A stretch of 64,000 bases of DNA, taken from positions 1-64,000 of the forward strand of contig NZ_CABWID010000010.1 in assembly GCF_902501965.1 (NCBI RefSeq), written 5' to 3'. The notes below the pieces were generated by a model. The model was not told the origin of the DNA, did not search any database, and was given only the letters and a program-made list of their open reading frames with translations. Both the position numbers and the translations under genes were made by a program. This document shows positions 1,187 to 37,732 of the stretch, piece by piece (positions within the stretch are counted from its first letter, which is position 1; each line of letters opens with the position of its first letter). This stretch comes from Collinsella sp. AK_207A (GTDB taxonomy: Bacteria > Actinomycetota > Coriobacteriia > Coriobacteriales > Coriobacteriaceae).

Positions 1187-2902
<1,716 letters not shown>

Positions 2903-3281
2903 GCCATCTCCTCCTTGATTATCGGGATCGCTGCCGGGGCGCCCGCGGCTTTTCCGGCACGCATAACGGTATCAATGTAGCGCAACGATCCGCTGAAACC
3001 GCCGCTGGAACCCCCTCATTTGAAGAAATCGCGACGAACACCGCAAGTGCCTTCCATTTTTGTGTCCGCGCACCGGAGTAAGATAGCTGAATAAGCACGT
3101 TGTCCCGCATGGCCGGACGATCCTTGCCACACCCGGCTCTCCCCGCGCATGGCGTGACGAGAAAATGCCGCGGGAGTCCACCCCCCCCGATGCGCGCTTC
3201 CCGATAGTCCGAACTCCAACAGCCCTTTTGAAGAAAAAGCGTTTGAAGCATGCAGATTTGTGCGAGAAAACGTTAACGAAT

Positions 3282-3420
3282 CGTGTACTGTGCAACGCCG
3301 CAAAAATGCACGCAATATGCGTGGTACAAAGCAAACGTGTTCCGTTCGTCCACGCTCGAACAGGTACACGGAGAGCGCATTTGCGCAGGGAAAAGGGTTC
3401 CGGGCAGGGAGCCTTTTTCT
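3282..3420 (+). ncRNA. Candidate structured small RNA (three-way junction plus terminator)
   Basis: In a 619-bp gap with no convincing ORF, the plus strand can fold as follows. A closing stem pairs CGTGTAC (3282-3288) with GTACACG (3364-3370). It encloses a hairpin CACGC/GCGTG (3309-3323) and a hairpin TGTTC/GAACA (3338-3362). A hairpin GCGCA-TT-TGCGC (3375-3386) follows, and then a terminator-like stem with a U-run (3391-3420). The base composition is also less GC-rich than the neighbouring genes. No known RNA family (tmRNA, RNase P, SRP, 6S) was recognised. The call rests on structure seen by eye and on an otherwise orphan plus-strand terminator. Confidence 0.3.
3391..3420 (+). terminator. 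Intrinsic terminator, orphan on plus strand
   Basis: AAAAGGGTTCC (3391-3401) pairs with GGGAGCCTTTT (3408-3418) with one internal mismatch, followed by a T-rich run. No plus-strand protein gene precedes it, which is the main reason to suspect a small RNA upstream. Confidence 0.5.
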
Positions 3421-3463
3421 TTATGCCTCGCCCTTTCAACTAAGCCGCACATGCACGAAGAAC

Positions 3464-3497
3464 GGGCCGGAAGCGCATGCATCCGCGCTCCCGGCCC
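3464..3497 (-). terminator. Terminator hairpin after first DUF2207 gene
   Basis: GGGCCGGAAGCGC (3464-3476) pairs with GCGCTCCCGGCCC (3485-3497) with one wobble. On the minus strand it follows the stop codon at 3522 and is followed by a weak GTTCTTCGT tract. Confidence 0.55.
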
Positions 3498-3521
3498 AAC
3501 TATTCAAACACAACCAAGCGG

Positions 3522-5453
3522 TTAGAACGTTCCTCCGCCCCCGCCACCGACGCCGCCTCCGCCACCGCCGGAGAAGCCTCCGCCAAAGCCGCCGCCAGAA
3601 CTCTCGCTCGAGGCGGCGATGGTCGAGATCGCGACATCGTTCGCCGCGGTGAGCGCCGAGGTCGGCGTCTCCATACCCTCATGCCGGCGGTACCACCACC
3701 AGCTGGGATAGTAGCCATCGGAGAAAGAGTCATCGTAGCTCGTGGGCGTAGCAGCCGCCAGATCCTCGAGCACCTGATCGGATACGCCAAGGGCCACCGC
3801 AAAGACGAGCAGCTTGTTCCAGAGCACCACATCACCCGGCACTGCCTCGTGCAGGCGCGTGAAGTCCTCGAACCAATGCTTCAGCGCCCGGCAGCGGGCG
3901 TAGAGCTCCGCCCCCTCCGGCGTGAAGCGCTTGAAGGTCCAGCTCAGCACGATACCCGCGGTGGAAAGCACCGCGACCACGGGTATCATGACGAGCCATC
4001 CGGCCTCGGCGCAGAAGATGATTCCCAGGAGCAGAGAGATGCCGCCCACGATGCTCCCGCCGATACCCGCGGCAAGGCCGGTCGAACGCACCAAATCGCG
4101 GCTCTCCAAACGGTCCCTCACCACCGAGGTGTAGGACCGCCACCGCTCCGAATAACCCTCGGGATCATCCTCGGCAACCTTCTTCATCTCCTGGAACGCG
4201 ATCTCGTAGCGGCCCTCACCGCAATAGAGCTTGATCGCGGCGCGATCGATTTCGTCCTTCACGCGCTGCTCGTAGTCCTCCGGTACCCCGAGCAGGTAAT
4301 CGTCCTCCTGACGCTCGCCGCCAAAGAAGGTACGCGTCGTAGACGTGGTCTTGGAGACCGAGACGATATGGTCGTCCGTGAGCTTCATGATGGTGGACAC
4401 CAGGGCGGCGTTACCCACAGATTTGTTCTTCATAAACGCCGCGATGACCGCTGGATGGTCGTCGGAAGGCACATCGCGGAAATATGTCTCCTGGAACAGG
4501 GGCTTGGGCTTGCGCCCAAAGGCGATCTTGACGATCACCACCGCCAGGAAGAAGCAGACCGAAGCGGCGATGCCCACCCCACCGAGCACCATTGCCTCCT
4601 GACGCGCCGCTTCGCGCGCCCGATTCGCTTGATCGGCCCATGTCTGCTCCTCGGAAAGTATGACGGGCAGGCGGTTGCCAGAGCTGTCGACCTCCCCGTT
4701 TGGAGCATTGCCCGGCGCGAGCTGGGGCACCCAGGCCGTGGGGAAGACGATGCGCGCTTCGGCGAACTCGCCGGAATTGACCGTGGGAACCGCGTAGGTA
4801 ACGGCGGGCGTGCCCGCATCCAGGGCAACATCGCCGTCCAGCGGGCCATGGCCCCAGGCGCGCAGGTTCGCGGAATCGGAGCCCGTGCTGGCTGCCACGC
4901 CCGAGGAGCTGGCGCCTGCAAAGCTCACACTCAGCTGGACGTCGTCGGAATCCTCTGCCCAACCGCTGCCGACGAACTTCCAGTACAGCTCTGCGGTATC
5001 GTTCCACGACATGACCGCGCCGGTCAGGCTATAGGTGATCGAGATCGTGGCCTCGTCGCCATCGGCATGGGGCGCGTACACCTTGAGTTGGATGTCCGAG
5101 TCCGTGGTTTCCGCGGTGTAGACGCCGGACTCTCCGTTCTCGGCGCTGCTCACCTGCTGGTAGTCCGTGGTACCGTCAGACACCCGCTGCACCTGGATAT
5201 CGGCGGTCGCACCCTGCTTGTTCGCCCCGAGCGGGATATCCCAGAAGACGCCGTTCACGCTCTCGTCGAACGAAAACATGCGCTGCTCCGTCACGGTGAG
5301 CGAGCCGTCCTGCTGAACCTCGGCCTCTATGTGCACATGGGGCATGGAGAAACTGCTCGCCCGAGCCGTGGACGGCGCAAACAGCCCTGCGAGCACGAAC
5401 ACGAGCACGAACACGGACAAGACGAACGGGACCGCAAGGCGACGCATGCGCAT
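3522..5453 (-). CDS. DUF2207-family membrane protein (copy A)
   Basis: A 643-residue predicted surface/membrane protein of the DUF2207 family, whose function is not established. An N-terminal signal peptide (about residues 1-33, ending near STARA) is followed by an extracytoplasmic beta-rich domain with a VTEQRMFSFDESVNG-type segment typical of the family. A membrane helix follows near residue 280 (VGIAASVCFFLAVVIVKIAFG), then a cytoplasmic-type region, a paired hydrophobic segment near 450-510, and a long glycine-rich tail ending GGGGGGTF. The ATG at 5453 follows GGGAGA; a TTG 12 bp upstream is less likely. It is paralogous to the next gene and probably co-transcribed with it. Confidence 0.85.
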   Translation of the reverse strand: MRMRRLAVPFVLSVFVLVFVLAGLFAPSTARASSFSMPHVHIEAEVQQDGSLTVTEQRMFSFDESVNGVFWDIPLGANKQGATADIQVQRVSDGTTDYQQVSSAENGESGVYTAETTDSDIQLKVYAPHADGDEATISITYSLTGAVMSWNDTAELYWKFVGSGWAEDSDDVQLSVSFAGASSSGVAASTGSDSANLRAWGHGPLDGDVALDAGTPAVTYAVPTVNSGEFAEARIVFPTAWVPQLAPGNAPNGEVDSSGNRLPVILSEEQTWADQANRAREAARQEAMVLGGVGIAASVCFFLAVVIVKIAFGRKPKPLFQETYFRDVPSDDHPAVIAAFMKNKSVGNAALVSTIMKLTDDHIVSVSKTTSTTRTFFGGERQEDDYLLGVPEDYEQRVKDEIDRAAIKLYCGEGRYEIAFQEMKKVAEDDPEGYSERWRSYTSVVRDRLESRDLVRSTGLAAGIGGSIVGGISLLLGIIFCAEAGWLVMIPVVAVLSTAGIVLSWTFKRFTPEGAELYARCRALKHWFEDFTRLHEAVPGDVVLWNKLLVFAVALGVSDQVLEDLAAATPTSYDDSFSDGYYPSWWWYRRHEGMETPTSALTAANDVAISTIAASSESSGGGFGGGFSGGGGGGVGGGGGGTF

Positions 5454-5558
5454 GGGTTCTCCCAACGTTGAGATGACACTCTGAACTGCCGGACAGCATT
5501 CTACTCTCCCCGCATGGTCGCGGCGCCGCGCGCAGTCAACGCATGCGGCACGCCCTCG

Positions 5559-7442
5559 CTAGAAGGTGCCTCCGCCTCCCCCTCCGACGCCGCCACCGCC
5601 GCCGCCCGAGAATCCACCGCCAAATCCGCTTCCAGAGCTTGAGGCGCTCCCCGCCGCCACGGCAACCGAGACATCGCTCACCCGATGCATGGCACGAATC
5701 GGGGCATCCATGTTGCCGTGCCGGCGCAGCCACCACCAGCTGGGGTAATAGGGACTCCCGTCTGCGTACGCTTCATCGAACGCGCGCGGCGTGGCCGCCG
5801 CCAGCTCCTTCAGCACCCGGTCTGATACGCCCAGGGCCACCGCCATGACGAGCAACTTGTTCCAAAGCACCACGTCACCGGGCGCGGCCGCGCCCAGCCG
5901 CGTGAAATCCTCCAGCCAGTGCTTGAGGGCGCGGCAGCGCGCTTGCAGGTCAACGCCCTTCTGCGTCAGGCGGCGCAGCGTGGACGCGACGAGGATCCCG
6001 GCCACTACGAGCGGCAGGCCGATGAGCGGCAGCGGGGAGCCCAAATAGAGAGCGGAAGCCACCTCGCCAACCGCCAGCGCCCCGCCCGCAACGCACGCGA
6101 TCACAAATGGCAGCACGCCGTCCGACTCAACAAGATCCCAACGCTCCTGCCGGGCGGCAACCTCATCCTGGAAGTCCTTCCAGCGGGCACGGAAGAGCTC
6201 GGGTTCCTTCTTGGCTATGTCTTCCATTTCGCCGAACGCCACCGCAATCCCGCCGTCTCCCAGGTAGAGGACCAATGCCGCACGGTCGATCCTGTCGGTC
6301 AGCGCCCGCCGATCTTCCGCGTCGACACTCAGCTCGTAATCCTCTTCCTCGCGCTTCTTGCCGAGTACGTTGCGTGCCTCGCGCGTCGTCTTGGCGATGC
6401 GGACCACATGCTCGTCGCACAGGTTCATCAACGTGGCGAGCAGGGCCCTGCCATCCGCCTTACGGCCGCTCATGAAAGCGGAGATGATAGCCGGATGCCC
6501 TCGCGAGGGCAGGTCGCGGAAATACTCGTCCGTAAACGTGGGCTTGGGATTGGGATGCCGCCATTTGAAGACGAGCACCACCAGGCAGAACAGCGCCGGC
6601 AACCCGATGCTCATCCCCGTGAGAACGTACAGTATGAGGCGCGCGTGCTCGCGCCGGGCATTCGCCTGGTCAGCCCACGCCTGTTCCTCGGAGAGAACGT
6701 CGGGCAGCCGCATCTGATTGACCGCCTGAAGATCAGGTACCCAGGCCGCAGGAAAGACGATACGTGCCTCCGCAACGTCTCCGGCAGGCACGGTGGGAAC
6801 GTCATAAGACACGGAAGGCCCGTCGGCATCGAGCGAAACGACACCGTCCAGGGGTCCATGCCCCCAGGCGCGCAGGTTGGCGCCGTCCGACCCCGTCTTC
6901 GCCTGCACGCCCGAGGCCGCGGCGTTCAGGAACGTCACGCTTAGATGCACGTCATCGGAATCGTTTTGCCAATCCGCGCCCACGTACTTCCAGTACAGCT
7001 CAGCGGTGTCTGACCATGCCATCACCGCGCCGGCAACGGTGTAGTTCACGGTGATGCGGGCCTCGTCGCCAGCCTCGTGCGGCGTGTAGACCTTGAGCGA
7101 AAGGTCGCCAGACACGTCCTCCTCAACGGTGTACACACCGCCCTGGCCGTTCTCCGCGCTCTCGACCCGCGCGAGCGACACGCCGTCCTCGCTCACGCTC
7201 CCCACAACGGTGGTCGACATCGCACCCTGCTGGTTCTGACCGTTTGCAAAAGTCCAGTAGACGCCGTTGGCGGCATCGTTGAAGCTGAAGGTCCGCGTCT
7301 CGGAAACGTTGAGCGAGCCATCCGTCCCCACAATTGCCTTGATATCCACGCGGGGCATGTCGGCATCGGCCCGTGCCAGAACCGGCGCGCAGAACAGCAG
7401 GCAAACCATGGCGAGTACGACGGCGACGATTCGGCGACGCAT
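5559..7442 (-). CDS. DUF2207-family membrane protein (copy B)
   Basis: A 627-residue paralogue of the gene downstream, with the same order of parts: signal peptide, extracytoplasmic domain (VSETRTFSFNDAANGVYW), membrane helix, cytoplasmic region with a second hydrophobic pair, and a glycine tail SGGGGGGVGGGGGGTF. Highly similar segments include WADQAN, LRAWGHGPLDG, and YYPSWWW before the tail, which points to an old tandem duplication. ATG at 7442 follows GAGGAG. The intergenic gap to copy A is about 100 bp and has no clear terminator, so one transcript is likely. No function is assigned; family members are envelope proteins. Confidence 0.85.
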   Translation of the reverse strand: MRRRIVAVVLAMVCLLFCAPVLARADADMPRVDIKAIVGTDGSLNVSETRTFSFNDAANGVYWTFANGQNQQGAMSTTVVGSVSEDGVSLARVESAENGQGGVYTVEEDVSGDLSLKVYTPHEAGDEARITVNYTVAGAVMAWSDTAELYWKYVGADWQNDSDDVHLSVTFLNAAASGVQAKTGSDGANLRAWGHGPLDGVVSLDADGPSVSYDVPTVPAGDVAEARIVFPAAWVPDLQAVNQMRLPDVLSEEQAWADQANARREHARLILYVLTGMSIGLPALFCLVVLVFKWRHPNPKPTFTDEYFRDLPSRGHPAIISAFMSGRKADGRALLATLMNLCDEHVVRIAKTTREARNVLGKKREEEDYELSVDAEDRRALTDRIDRAALVLYLGDGGIAVAFGEMEDIAKKEPELFRARWKDFQDEVAARQERWDLVESDGVLPFVIACVAGGALAVGEVASALYLGSPLPLIGLPLVVAGILVASTLRRLTQKGVDLQARCRALKHWLEDFTRLGAAAPGDVVLWNKLLVMAVALGVSDRVLKELAAATPRAFDEAYADGSPYYPSWWWLRRHGNMDAPIRAMHRVSDVSVAVAAGSASSSGSGFGGGFSGGGGGGVGGGGGGTF

Positions 7443-35411: not shown

Positions 35412-35566
35412 GTTGTACTCCCGGGATTGCGATATGCCCGGGTGGGAACGTCTCTGGTGCGCGCGGACATGCGCATGATAGTGGGTTTTCGAAAACGCTG
35501 CAGGTAAGTTTTCCCCACCTGTGGAATTCGAGATGCCTGCTCCATGAGGTACCCGACAAGGAAAAA

Positions 35567-35600
35567 GGGGATCGGCACCCTGTCCAGGTGCCGACCCCCC
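35567..35600 (-). terminator. Intrinsic terminator after surface PHP protein
   Basis: On the minus strand GGGGGTCGGCACC pairs with GGTGCCGATCCCC around a 7-base loop, followed by TTTTTCC. Confidence 0.85.
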
Positions 35601-35623
35601 TGCTTCGCCGCTCGCTCGCCGCG

Positions 35624-37732
35624 CTACTTTCCGTTGGCGGACAGGCGCTTCCTTGCCGCGATGCCCGCGACGACGAGCGCGCCACCCGCGAGGGCGACCG
35701 TCGCCACGGCCCCGCCGGCGTCGTCGCCCGTCTGGGGCAGGTTGCCCTTCTTGCCGTTCCCGGAGACGGCGACGGGCTTCTTCGTGTCGGCGCCGGTGCC
35801 GCCGCCGTTCCCGGTGCCGCCGCCCGTGCCCGGCTTGCCGCTCTCGGCGGGAGCGAGCGCCTTCTGCGCCGCCGTCACCTTATCCAGTGCGGCGGTCAGG
35901 GCGTCGCGGTCCGGAGCGCCCTGGGCCAGCAGCGCCCGCGCCTCGTCTACTGCCTGCTTCCAGGCAGCAAAGCTCGCGGCCGAGTAGGCCTTGGCATCCG
36001 CGGCGTCGAAGGCGTCCACCGCCTGCTGCAGGTTGGCCTTCACCTGCTCGTACAACGTGTCTGAGGCACTCGCGTTCACGAAAATCGGGTTCGCGTAGAA
36101 CGAGTAGTGGGCGTAGTTCTGATCGTTGATGTCGTCCATGCGCGTGCTGGGATCCGACACGTCATCGAACTGCGCATCGGCCACCGGGTCGCCGTTCTCG
36201 TCCACCGCGTTCGTGCTCACGCCGCGCAGGCGGTAGTAGACGGCATGGTCCGCCGTGTCCGTGAAGGTGACGGTGTAGTAGCCGTCCTGGTCCGGCTGGC
36301 CCAGCTCCTCCTTGGAGAACGTCTTGACGATCTTGGCGTCCGTGTTGGCCGTGGAGCCGTACGCGCTCTCGTCCACCTTGCCCGTCACCGAGCCGCGGAT
36401 CAGGTCGATGTGGTCCACCTGGGGCGTGCCGCTCGCGGCGATGCCGGTGTCCGTGGTGCCGATCTTCTGGTAGTTGTTCTTGACCGGCACGCGGAAGCGG
36501 ACCGTGATGGTGATGGGATCGCTCGCCGTGGCCTCGAGCGTGCCGCCCATGGTCGCCGTCTTGCCGTTGCTCACCGCCGTGAAGTCCAACGCGTCGATGA
36601 TGTCGCCGTACGTGGAGAACGAGTTGCCCGAGCGCAGGCCGTCCACCACATCGTGCACGTCGTAGCCGTCGCCCTCGGCGTCGTTCACGTAGGTGTAGTT
36701 GCGGGCGTACTCGCTCGGCCAGTAGCCGCTGGAATACTGCCCGTTGCTCGAGACCTTGAAGTGGAAGTCCGCGTTGGCGAAGTTCCAGAAATGGCGCCCC
36801 TCGGAGAGCATCGCGTCCCAGACGCCGCCCGTCTGCGCGATGTCCTTGTCCGCGCCGGCAAAGCTCTCGGGCAGCTCACCGCGCTTGGAGCCGGACATCT
36901 GGTTGCCCGGCATCCCCTCGAAGCCGAACACGTTGTTGGGCGCGGCGTCGTTCAGGCGGCGCAGGTTCTCGATGGTGACGGCCCCGCCACCGGAGTAGCC
37001 GTGGCGCGAGGGGTGGTTGGGCAGCAGGTAGCTGTCGGGGTAGTGCTCCGCGATCCACGCCGCGCCCTCGTAGGCGTGCTGCACGTCGGAGTCGCCCAGG
37101 CGGTCACCCCACATGGCCTGCTCCGCCGCACCGTTGTTGTCGAAGGCCCAGGTGGCATCGTCGCCGTCGGTGGCGTGCGCGTACTTCCACTCGAACTCGT
37201 GAATGCCCTCGTAGGGTACCTCGTCGCTGTCGGACTGGATAAGACCCACCGATGCGTGATCCAGGCCCGGCATGTCCCACTCAAAGCCGGAGTAGACGAT
37301 CTTCCCCTGGTAGGTGGTGGTAAGCGCCTCAGCCAGCGACTTCTGTTGCTCCTGCACCGCCTTGTAGAACGGCGTGCTGTAATCCCCGCCGCCCTTGGTC
37401 ATATCCGTGGAGGAGCGGCGCAGGTGGTCGGCGAAGAACAGGTAGTCGTAGGGCTGCCCGTACTTGATGGCGTCCACGTGGCTGTTCGGCGAGGATGCCT
37501 GCAGCGCGGCGAGCACGGCCTGGTTGCGGAAGGCGGCAGCCAGCGAGTTCTGCAGGCCCATGTAGCCCTCGGTCGCGTCCTTGGACATGCCCGTGTGCGT
37601 GTGGTACTCACCGCTCATCCACTTTCCCTGCGCGAAGGCCGGCACCGCCATGCTGCCCAGCATCAGGCCGGCAGCCACCGCGGCGACGGCGCCCCGCACG
37701 ACGAGCCGACGTCCGCGTTCAAACGTTCCCAT
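35624..37732 (-). CDS. Cell-wall-anchored PHP-domain protein
   Basis: A 702-residue secreted protein. A signal peptide (about 1-35, VPAFA) is followed by a PHP-type metal-hydrolase domain (His44 and His46 in EYHTHTG, later DHL and LPNHPSRHG segments, NADFH). A beta-rich middle and a helical FIVAR-like stretch (VDAFDAADAKAYSAASFAA) lead to a Gly/Thr-rich linker, LPQTG, a membrane helix and a KRLSANGK tail, a sortase signal. PHP enzymes cleave phosphoesters; the substrate outside the cell is unknown. ATG at 37732 follows AGGGAG. No neighbour suggests a pathway. Confidence 0.8.
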   Translation of the reverse strand: MGTFERGRRLVVRGAVAAVAAGLMLGSMAVPAFAQGKWMSGEYHTHTGMSKDATEGYMGLQNSLAAAFRNQAVLAALQASSPNSHVDAIKYGQPYDYLFFADHLRRSSTDMTKGGGDYSTPFYKAVQEQQKSLAEALTTTYQGKIVYSGFEWDMPGLDHASVGLIQSDSDEVPYEGIHEFEWKYAHATDGDDATWAFDNNGAAEQAMWGDRLGDSDVQHAYEGAAWIAEHYPDSYLLPNHPSRHGYSGGGAVTIENLRRLNDAAPNNVFGFEGMPGNQMSGSKRGELPESFAGADKDIAQTGGVWDAMLSEGRHFWNFANADFHFKVSSNGQYSSGYWPSEYARNYTYVNDAEGDGYDVHDVVDGLRSGNSFSTYGDIIDALDFTAVSNGKTATMGGTLEATASDPITITVRFRVPVKNNYQKIGTTDTGIAASGTPQVDHIDLIRGSVTGKVDESAYGSTANTDAKIVKTFSKEELGQPDQDGYYTVTFTDTADHAVYYRLRGVSTNAVDENGDPVADAQFDDVSDPSTRMDDINDQNYAHYSFYANPIFVNASASDTLYEQVKANLQQAVDAFDAADAKAYSAASFAAWKQAVDEARALLAQGAPDRDALTAALDKVTAAQKALAPAESGKPGTGGGTGNGGGTGADTKKPVAVSGNGKKGNLPQTGDDAGGAVATVALAGGALVVAGIAARKRLSANGK

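Follow-up and report, generated by a model that had tools for sequence, protein, structure and literature searches.

A candidate small RNA beside purH in Collinsella, related to the 3′ untranslated region of a GNAT acetyltransferase gene

Between purH and a gene for a DUF2207 membrane protein, Collinsella sp. AK_207A appears to encode a stand-alone small RNA of ~85 nt, which would have arisen from the 3′ untranslated region (3′ UTR) of a GNAT acetyltransferase mRNA after loss of the open reading frame (ORF) and would act in trans. We give this reading a probability of about 0.6. It draws on evidence read from sequence, namely, homology to the 3′ UTR, a promoter motif in common with GNAT, the missing ORF, and conservation in three species without it.

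Results

The window (the whole stretch of 64,000 nucleotides analyzed here) comes from a genome of 2,118,127 bp, designated G000. The spacer that carries the RNA is flanked by two minus-strand genes, whereas the RNA itself reads on the plus strand (Table 1). Mechanical ORFs cross the RNA stretch on both strands and were judged to be noncoding from the diverged and gapped homologues. A second, tandem DUF2207 membrane protein gene (5559-7442, minus) lies beside the first, and both products carry long glycine-rich tails (GGGGGGVGGGGGGTF). At the corresponding locus of another genome, G025 (L067, past position ~600 of its reverse complement), the right neighbor is a different gene, and no DUF2207 match was found within the 4.2 kb examined.

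Table 1. Coordinates of the predicted RNA, its parts, and its surroundings in the window
Feature	Position	Strand	Remarks
Predicted small RNA, ~85 nt	about 3337..3422	plus	fold z −5.0; homology to GNAT 3′ UTRs
Upstream promoter block A, TTTTGAAGAA	3226..3235	plus	96 bp upstream of TG of extended −10
Extended −10, GTGGTACAAA	3321..3330	plus	conserved motif; TGGTACAAA at 3322-3330
Hairpin P2	3336..3370	plus	12 pairs, one mismatch and one bulge
Short hairpin P3	3375..3386	plus	GCGC-AUUU-GCGC
Intrinsic terminator hairpin	3389..3420	plus	13 pairs, then U's; U-rich 3′ side
Terminator loop GGGCAG, proposed functional site	3402..3407	plus	identical in three species
purH	1187..2902	minus	Pfam AICARFT_IMPCHas and MGS; left neighbor, divergent
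DUF2207 membrane protein gene	3522..5465	minus	Pfam DUF2207 and DUF2207_C; right neighbor, convergent
Terminator-like site just 3′ of DUF2207 gene	3463..3498	minus	pattern match

The original prediction described a structured plus-strand RNA of about 140 nt (3282-3420) with a three-way junction and its own terminator. The fold and the terminator have support from the sequence: the plus strand of 3282-3420 has a folding energy of −56 kcal/mol (z −3.8; none of 200 shuffles as good), and the trimmed stretch 3331-3425 reaches the z value given in Table 1 with two hairpins followed by the terminator hairpin, whereas the minus strand folds less well over both stretches (z −2.25 and −2.20, respectively). 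The junction, the boundaries, and the size were not borne out. The stem closing the junction (3288-3295 with 3381-3388) has an in silico pairing probability of 0.86 to 0.98 and a comparable stem in the minimum free energy (MFE) fold of the G025 homologue, but it is absent from the MFE fold of the homologue in Collinsella vaginalis (G065, of the same genus), and its 5′ arm lies upstream of the conserved extended −10 (3322-3330), hence outside the transcript, provided that the promoter is correctly assigned. We infer that the RNA starts at ~3337, 7 nt past the −10 and at the foot of P2, and that the left part of the stretch first proposed is promoter. The terminator hairpin was absent from the output of a simple terminator scan, and the probable reason is that its U's are taken up in stem pairing. 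The strand preference of the fold differs among the homologues: the window leans toward plus and G025 is about even, whereas the P2 of C. vaginalis strongly favors minus (−27.4 versus −14.7 kcal/mol on plus), because A-C mismatches on plus become G-U pairs on minus, and the whole region gives z −4.86 on minus versus −3.28 on plus. With a conserved match to a promoter motif, a stable fold, a terminator, and a position between opposite-strand genes, the stretch is predicted to be an intergenic small RNA gene.

Elsewhere in the genus, the site is occupied by a protein gene. Across 43 loci, comprising those of 42 relatives and the window, a plus-strand GNAT acetyltransferase gene lies between purH and the next gene in 39, and it is absent from the site in the remaining four genomes (the window, G001, G065, and G025). 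These four group together with support of 100/99 in a midpoint-rooted purH tree, which was built from 30 of the 43 genomes and in which G025 sits on a long branch. GNAT relatives with 38 to 44% identity were found elsewhere in G001, G025, and G065, and none in G000. Outside the genus, 8 of the 12 genomes searched had a GNAT match, which lay beside purH in 5 of the 8; thus, the GNAT gene at the purH site is probably ancestral, and its loss is probably derived. The whole stretch, promoter and RNA included, is gone from G001, where the RNA is therefore dispensable; the other three GNAT-less genomes keep the −10, P2, and the terminator.

In 6 of the 39 GNAT loci (G031, G020, G024, G029, G013, and G016), a structured element ending in a terminator follows the GNAT stop codon; the other 33, 4 of which had at most 153 nt to inspect, show no such element. 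The element consists, in order, of a hairpin P1, a P2 resembling GAACAGGCAUACG, a P3 resembling AGCGCAUC, and the terminator. The P1 loop reads UUGAGGGCAGCUU in G031, G020, and G024, with one change in G029 and one base fewer in G013, and it contains GGGCAG in five of the six elements and GGACAG in G016; G024 keeps P1 and is divergent after it. In P1, five species together show six pairs altered on both sides, a count reached by none of 500 shuffles; it leaves out G016, whose P1 does not fit, and in the alignment MAFFT set a gap of the G013 row in the stem.

By local alignment, the window RNA (3331-3425) is homologous to the 3′ half of this element in G016 (z 16.3), G020 (z 10.6), G013 (z 6.2), and G031 (z 5.7, with 1 of 1,000 shuffles as high); the similarity is weak or nil for G029 (z 2.8) and G024 (z 0.3), and control alignments with three GNAT loci without the element gave z values of 0.6, 0.4, and −0.8. 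The P2 sequence CGTTCG..CGAACAGG is common to the window RNA and the G016 3′ UTR, and AGCGCAT at P3 is common to the window RNA and the 3′ UTRs of G016 and G013. Thus, the window RNA has its sequence and terminator in common with an mRNA 3′ end, as a 3′-UTR-derived small RNA would, and the ORF is gone. A model built from the window RNA alone (R2) was searched in 43 sources, and its best match outside the window RNA itself was the G016 3′ UTR (41.8 bits); the 3′ UTRs of G020, G013, and G031 scored 23.6, 21.7, and 17.3 bits, respectively. For G065 and G025, it gave 28.9 and 28.0 bits versus 28.8 bits for an unrelated terminator in the window, so the case for these two rests on synteny, the terminator motif, and local alignment of their regions with the window RNA (z 8.7 and 9.0). 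The unrelated terminator (35565-35651, minus), which has a GGACAG loop and follows a gene with an LPxTG-like end (LPQTG), was taken as chance.

A reciprocal model (R3), made from the 3′ UTRs of G031, G020, G029, and G024, was searched against 65 genomes in the family, and 66 first-look candidates were scored in each. Among the 66 scored of 1,710 in G000, its best hit was at 3333-3393 on plus (E 0.10), followed by hits with E values of 0.25 and 0.55; the margin is small (17.2 versus 15.9 bits), and by our own estimate, a best hit would fall by chance on a given stretch of ~100 nt among 4.2 million positions about once in 40,000. Of the two 3′ UTRs held out, R3 recovered that of G013 at E 3.6e-7 and that of G016 as the best among the matches listed for its genome (E 0.84; next, 0.88); no match to the G065 or G025 RNA appeared among the 66 candidates scored per genome. 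Many R3 hits of 58 to 59 nt fell on one conserved stretch, which read as coding where it was met among the 15 loci inspected, and which we take to be uppS; these were set aside as noise. Another spurious R3 hit led to CRISPR-like repeats (GGGATCATCCCCGCATACGCGGGGAGCAC) at 1441-1640 of L173 (G064). A plain DNA search of 58 relatives gave short matches, and the 16 loci inspected away from the site were coding-like, some presumably clpB-like, or were other terminators, with no homologue among them.

The GNAT genes and the RNA share their promoter motif. In the three RNA-bearing species (the window, C. vaginalis, and G025), GTGGTACAA is identical and at a matching place, and 38 of the 39 GNAT loci have the extended −10 form TGnTAnAA within 120 nt before the GNAT start (none has it reversed), at a distance of 28 to 56 nt or, in G016, 104 nt; the form is also present at three of the five purH-linked GNAT loci of other genera. 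Since the rows of our upstream alignment were chosen by the −10 pattern, that alignment is itself no proof of the block, and the count of 38 was made again without this choice. Of these 38 loci, 7 have block A letter for letter 95 to 96 bp upstream of the −10 motif, and the other 31 have it at 95 to 97 bp with one to four mismatches, as the best match in a 25-base stretch. A second block A-like copy (ATTTGAAGAAATCGC) lies at 3018-3032 of the window, ~208 bp upstream of the aligned copy, and may be the mark of a duplicated promoter region. Two additional conserved blocks can be made out by eye between block A and the −10 with a spacing of roughly 31 to 32 bp (L068, L072, L081, and others), and they resemble phased sites for a single regulator.

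A profile of the promoter (R1) was built from 16 of 20 GNAT promoter rows, with four near copies removed and with the window, G065, and G025 deliberately kept out. Over 11 genomes, the profile hit the promoter of the C. vaginalis RNA (E 0.075, model positions 4-107) and gave no match in the window genome or G025 among 150 candidates scored per genome; for the window, promoter homology therefore rests on the two blocks and their spacing. Of the ten R1 loci examined, only L133 and L135 were at the purH site by tblastn. No clear second use of the GNAT upstream stretch emerged from profile searches of 11 genomes, in which the best other match had an E value of 0.013 (G117). Besides, no consensus RNA fold was obtained for the upstream stretch over 23 sequences, nor over 20 without the three RNA carriers.

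The stand-alone form was found in only three of the genomes examined. A search of 297 genomes of the order found its terminator, GGNNNCGGGCAGGNNNCCTTTT with the GGGCAG loop, in three, each time at this site, and the backwards pattern in none. The loop and its flanks are fixed in the three species, whereas 4 of the 12 stem pairs counted are changed on both sides, a modest signal (21 of 500 shuffles as high). Compensatory changes, by which the original prediction could be judged, were thus found in the terminator of three species and in the related 3′-UTR P1 of five. For P2, no covariation was counted because the MAFFT alignments of the three RNAs misplace it. The best three-way 30-base window of the spacer lies in the terminator (19/30 identical versus 13/30 for the next outside), and at 12-base windows the −10 block equals the terminator, with 9/12 each. 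A pattern scan of contigs gave six stretches, one from C. vaginalis; the others, from Saccharibacillus, Bacteroidales (two), Clostridia, and Chitinophagaceae, were taken as chance. In one further search, 12 of 15 matches lay outside the RNA site.

None of the 4,227 Rfam models matched the locus at its gathering score, which only three tRNAs reach in the whole window, and nothing relevant appeared at the locus with E values up to 10. The best Rfam match in 2880-3540, ctRNA_p42d (RF00489; 20.1 bits versus a gathering score of 50), covers the terminator only and was rejected, as was Collinsella-1 (RF01700), which had no match at the locus or elsewhere in G000 at E values up to 10. Among the papers that literature searches listed for Collinsella small RNA, noncoding RNA, transcription start sites, and RNA-seq and for Coriobacteri RNA motifs, no study of this locus appeared, and purH is absent from the main text of PMC8040213. 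The idea of a regulatory small RNA with its own terminator and of no known family thus stands as a prediction; overall, the first reading is partly supported, and the relation to the GNAT mRNA 3′ UTR was beyond its view.

An 11-base target search with GAGGGCAGCTT in 14 genomes returned 29 matches with no convincing partner judging from their flanks. Four of the matches are GNAT 3′ UTRs, and the flanks of the other 25 look mostly coding-like by eye.

Discussion

We propose that the ancestor had a GNAT mRNA with a structured 3′ UTR ending in a terminator, and that the 5′ UTR, the ORF, and P1 were lost in the ancestor of the GNAT-less group. Such a loss would have joined the GNAT promoter directly to P2, P3, and the terminator, which it would now drive alone. 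Transcription would then proceed from the extended −10 (3322-3330), start at ~3337 with a 5′ hairpin, and end at the terminator, and the RNA may act in trans by pairing with an mRNA or by binding a protein through its exposed GGGCAG loop. For species with GNAT, we would expect the element to serve as a 3′-UTR RNA or to be set free as one. The similarity to G016 persists after the loss of the ORF, and the RNA is therefore probably under selection without the protein. That the RNA tail was kept with signals for start and stop after the coding part was lost suggests, as far as sequence comparison goes, a job of its own.

It is also conceivable, and in our view rather unlikely, that what remains of the lost GNAT gene (its promoter, 3′ UTR, and terminator) persists as a relic, perhaps transcribed and without function, in which the terminator only blocks run-in to the convergent gene. 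The loss of GNAT at the site in four species and the deletion of the stretch in G001 accord with a relic, and the last hairpin is by itself a good terminator. A terminator, however, needs no fixed loop, and here the stem covaries around an invariant GGGCAG with invariant flanks; moreover, P2 and P3 align with G016 at z 16 although the two lineages are far apart in purH.

More improbable still is that the hairpin at 3389-3420 serves the DUF2207 gene as a bidirectional terminator between convergent transcripts, with the other hairpins due to chance. The stem is flanked by an A-tract and a U-tract, and both strands have some terminator character, but in the window the U-tract reads better on plus, and a separate terminator-like site for the DUF2207 gene lies at 3463-3498 on minus (one of three such sites in a pattern scan of 2000-6000, where shuffles lead one to expect 2.9). 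Besides, G025 keeps the same loop without a DUF2207 match in 4.2 kb, and the GNAT 3′ UTR has homologues of P2 and P3. An orphaned structured leader of the riboswitch or T-box type, with the three-way junction as first folded, is very improbable despite the closing stem that pairs well in silico and its counterpart in the G025 fold, as that stem is missing from the C. vaginalis fold, Rfam has no match, the upstream stretch without a consensus RNA fold (23 or 20 sequences) reads as promoter DNA, and no plus-strand gene lies downstream.

Within the reading of a small RNA derived from the GNAT 3′ UTR, the GGGCAG loop deserves separate mention. Having been lost with the P1 loop, GGGCAG reappears in the loop of the terminator, which suggests that this site is selected. 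A tentative extension, to which we give only limited credence, is that of a mobile recognition loop, in which GGGCAG from P1 would have been re-formed in the terminator loop after loss of the ORF and P1. If that were true, the loop would be the selected part, and the locus would be a natural experiment separating the function of the 3′-UTR RNA from that of the protein. The same promoter motif, place, and homologous 3′ end occur with the ORF in six species and without it in three, and this contrast allows a direct approach to whether the RNA functions in its own right and to the role of the conserved loop. How 3′-end small RNAs turn into independent genes is harder to see.

Several known RNAs invite comparison. 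Collinsella-1 (RF01700), which is tabled in PMC2864571 as a structured RNA candidate for Actinobacteria and the human gut, resembles the present RNA in that description, but it belongs to another family and, of six genomes searched, exceeds the cutoff only in G014, far from purH. Another is s-SodF of Streptomyces coelicolor, a 3′-UTR-derived small RNA of 90 nt that, according to the passages on it in PMC9438474, is cut from the sodF mRNA by a nuclease not yet named and pairs with the sodN mRNA. It shares with the Collinsella RNA the actinobacterial host, a similar length, and an origin in an mRNA 3′ UTR, and it differs in being released by a nuclease and in having the sodN target, whereas in the Collinsella case the ORF is gone. 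The pair MalH and MicX, from Escherichia coli and Vibrio cholerae, respectively, offers a parallel of another kind: as outlined in the same source, MalH comes from an mRNA and MicX from its own promoter, so that the same genomic place yields an mRNA-derived RNA in one species and a separately transcribed RNA in the other. These are different organisms, and the passages concerned describe no loss of an ORF. Small RNAs derived from 3′ UTRs are thus a known kind, and by analogy the Collinsella RNA, if expressed, would work like that kind.
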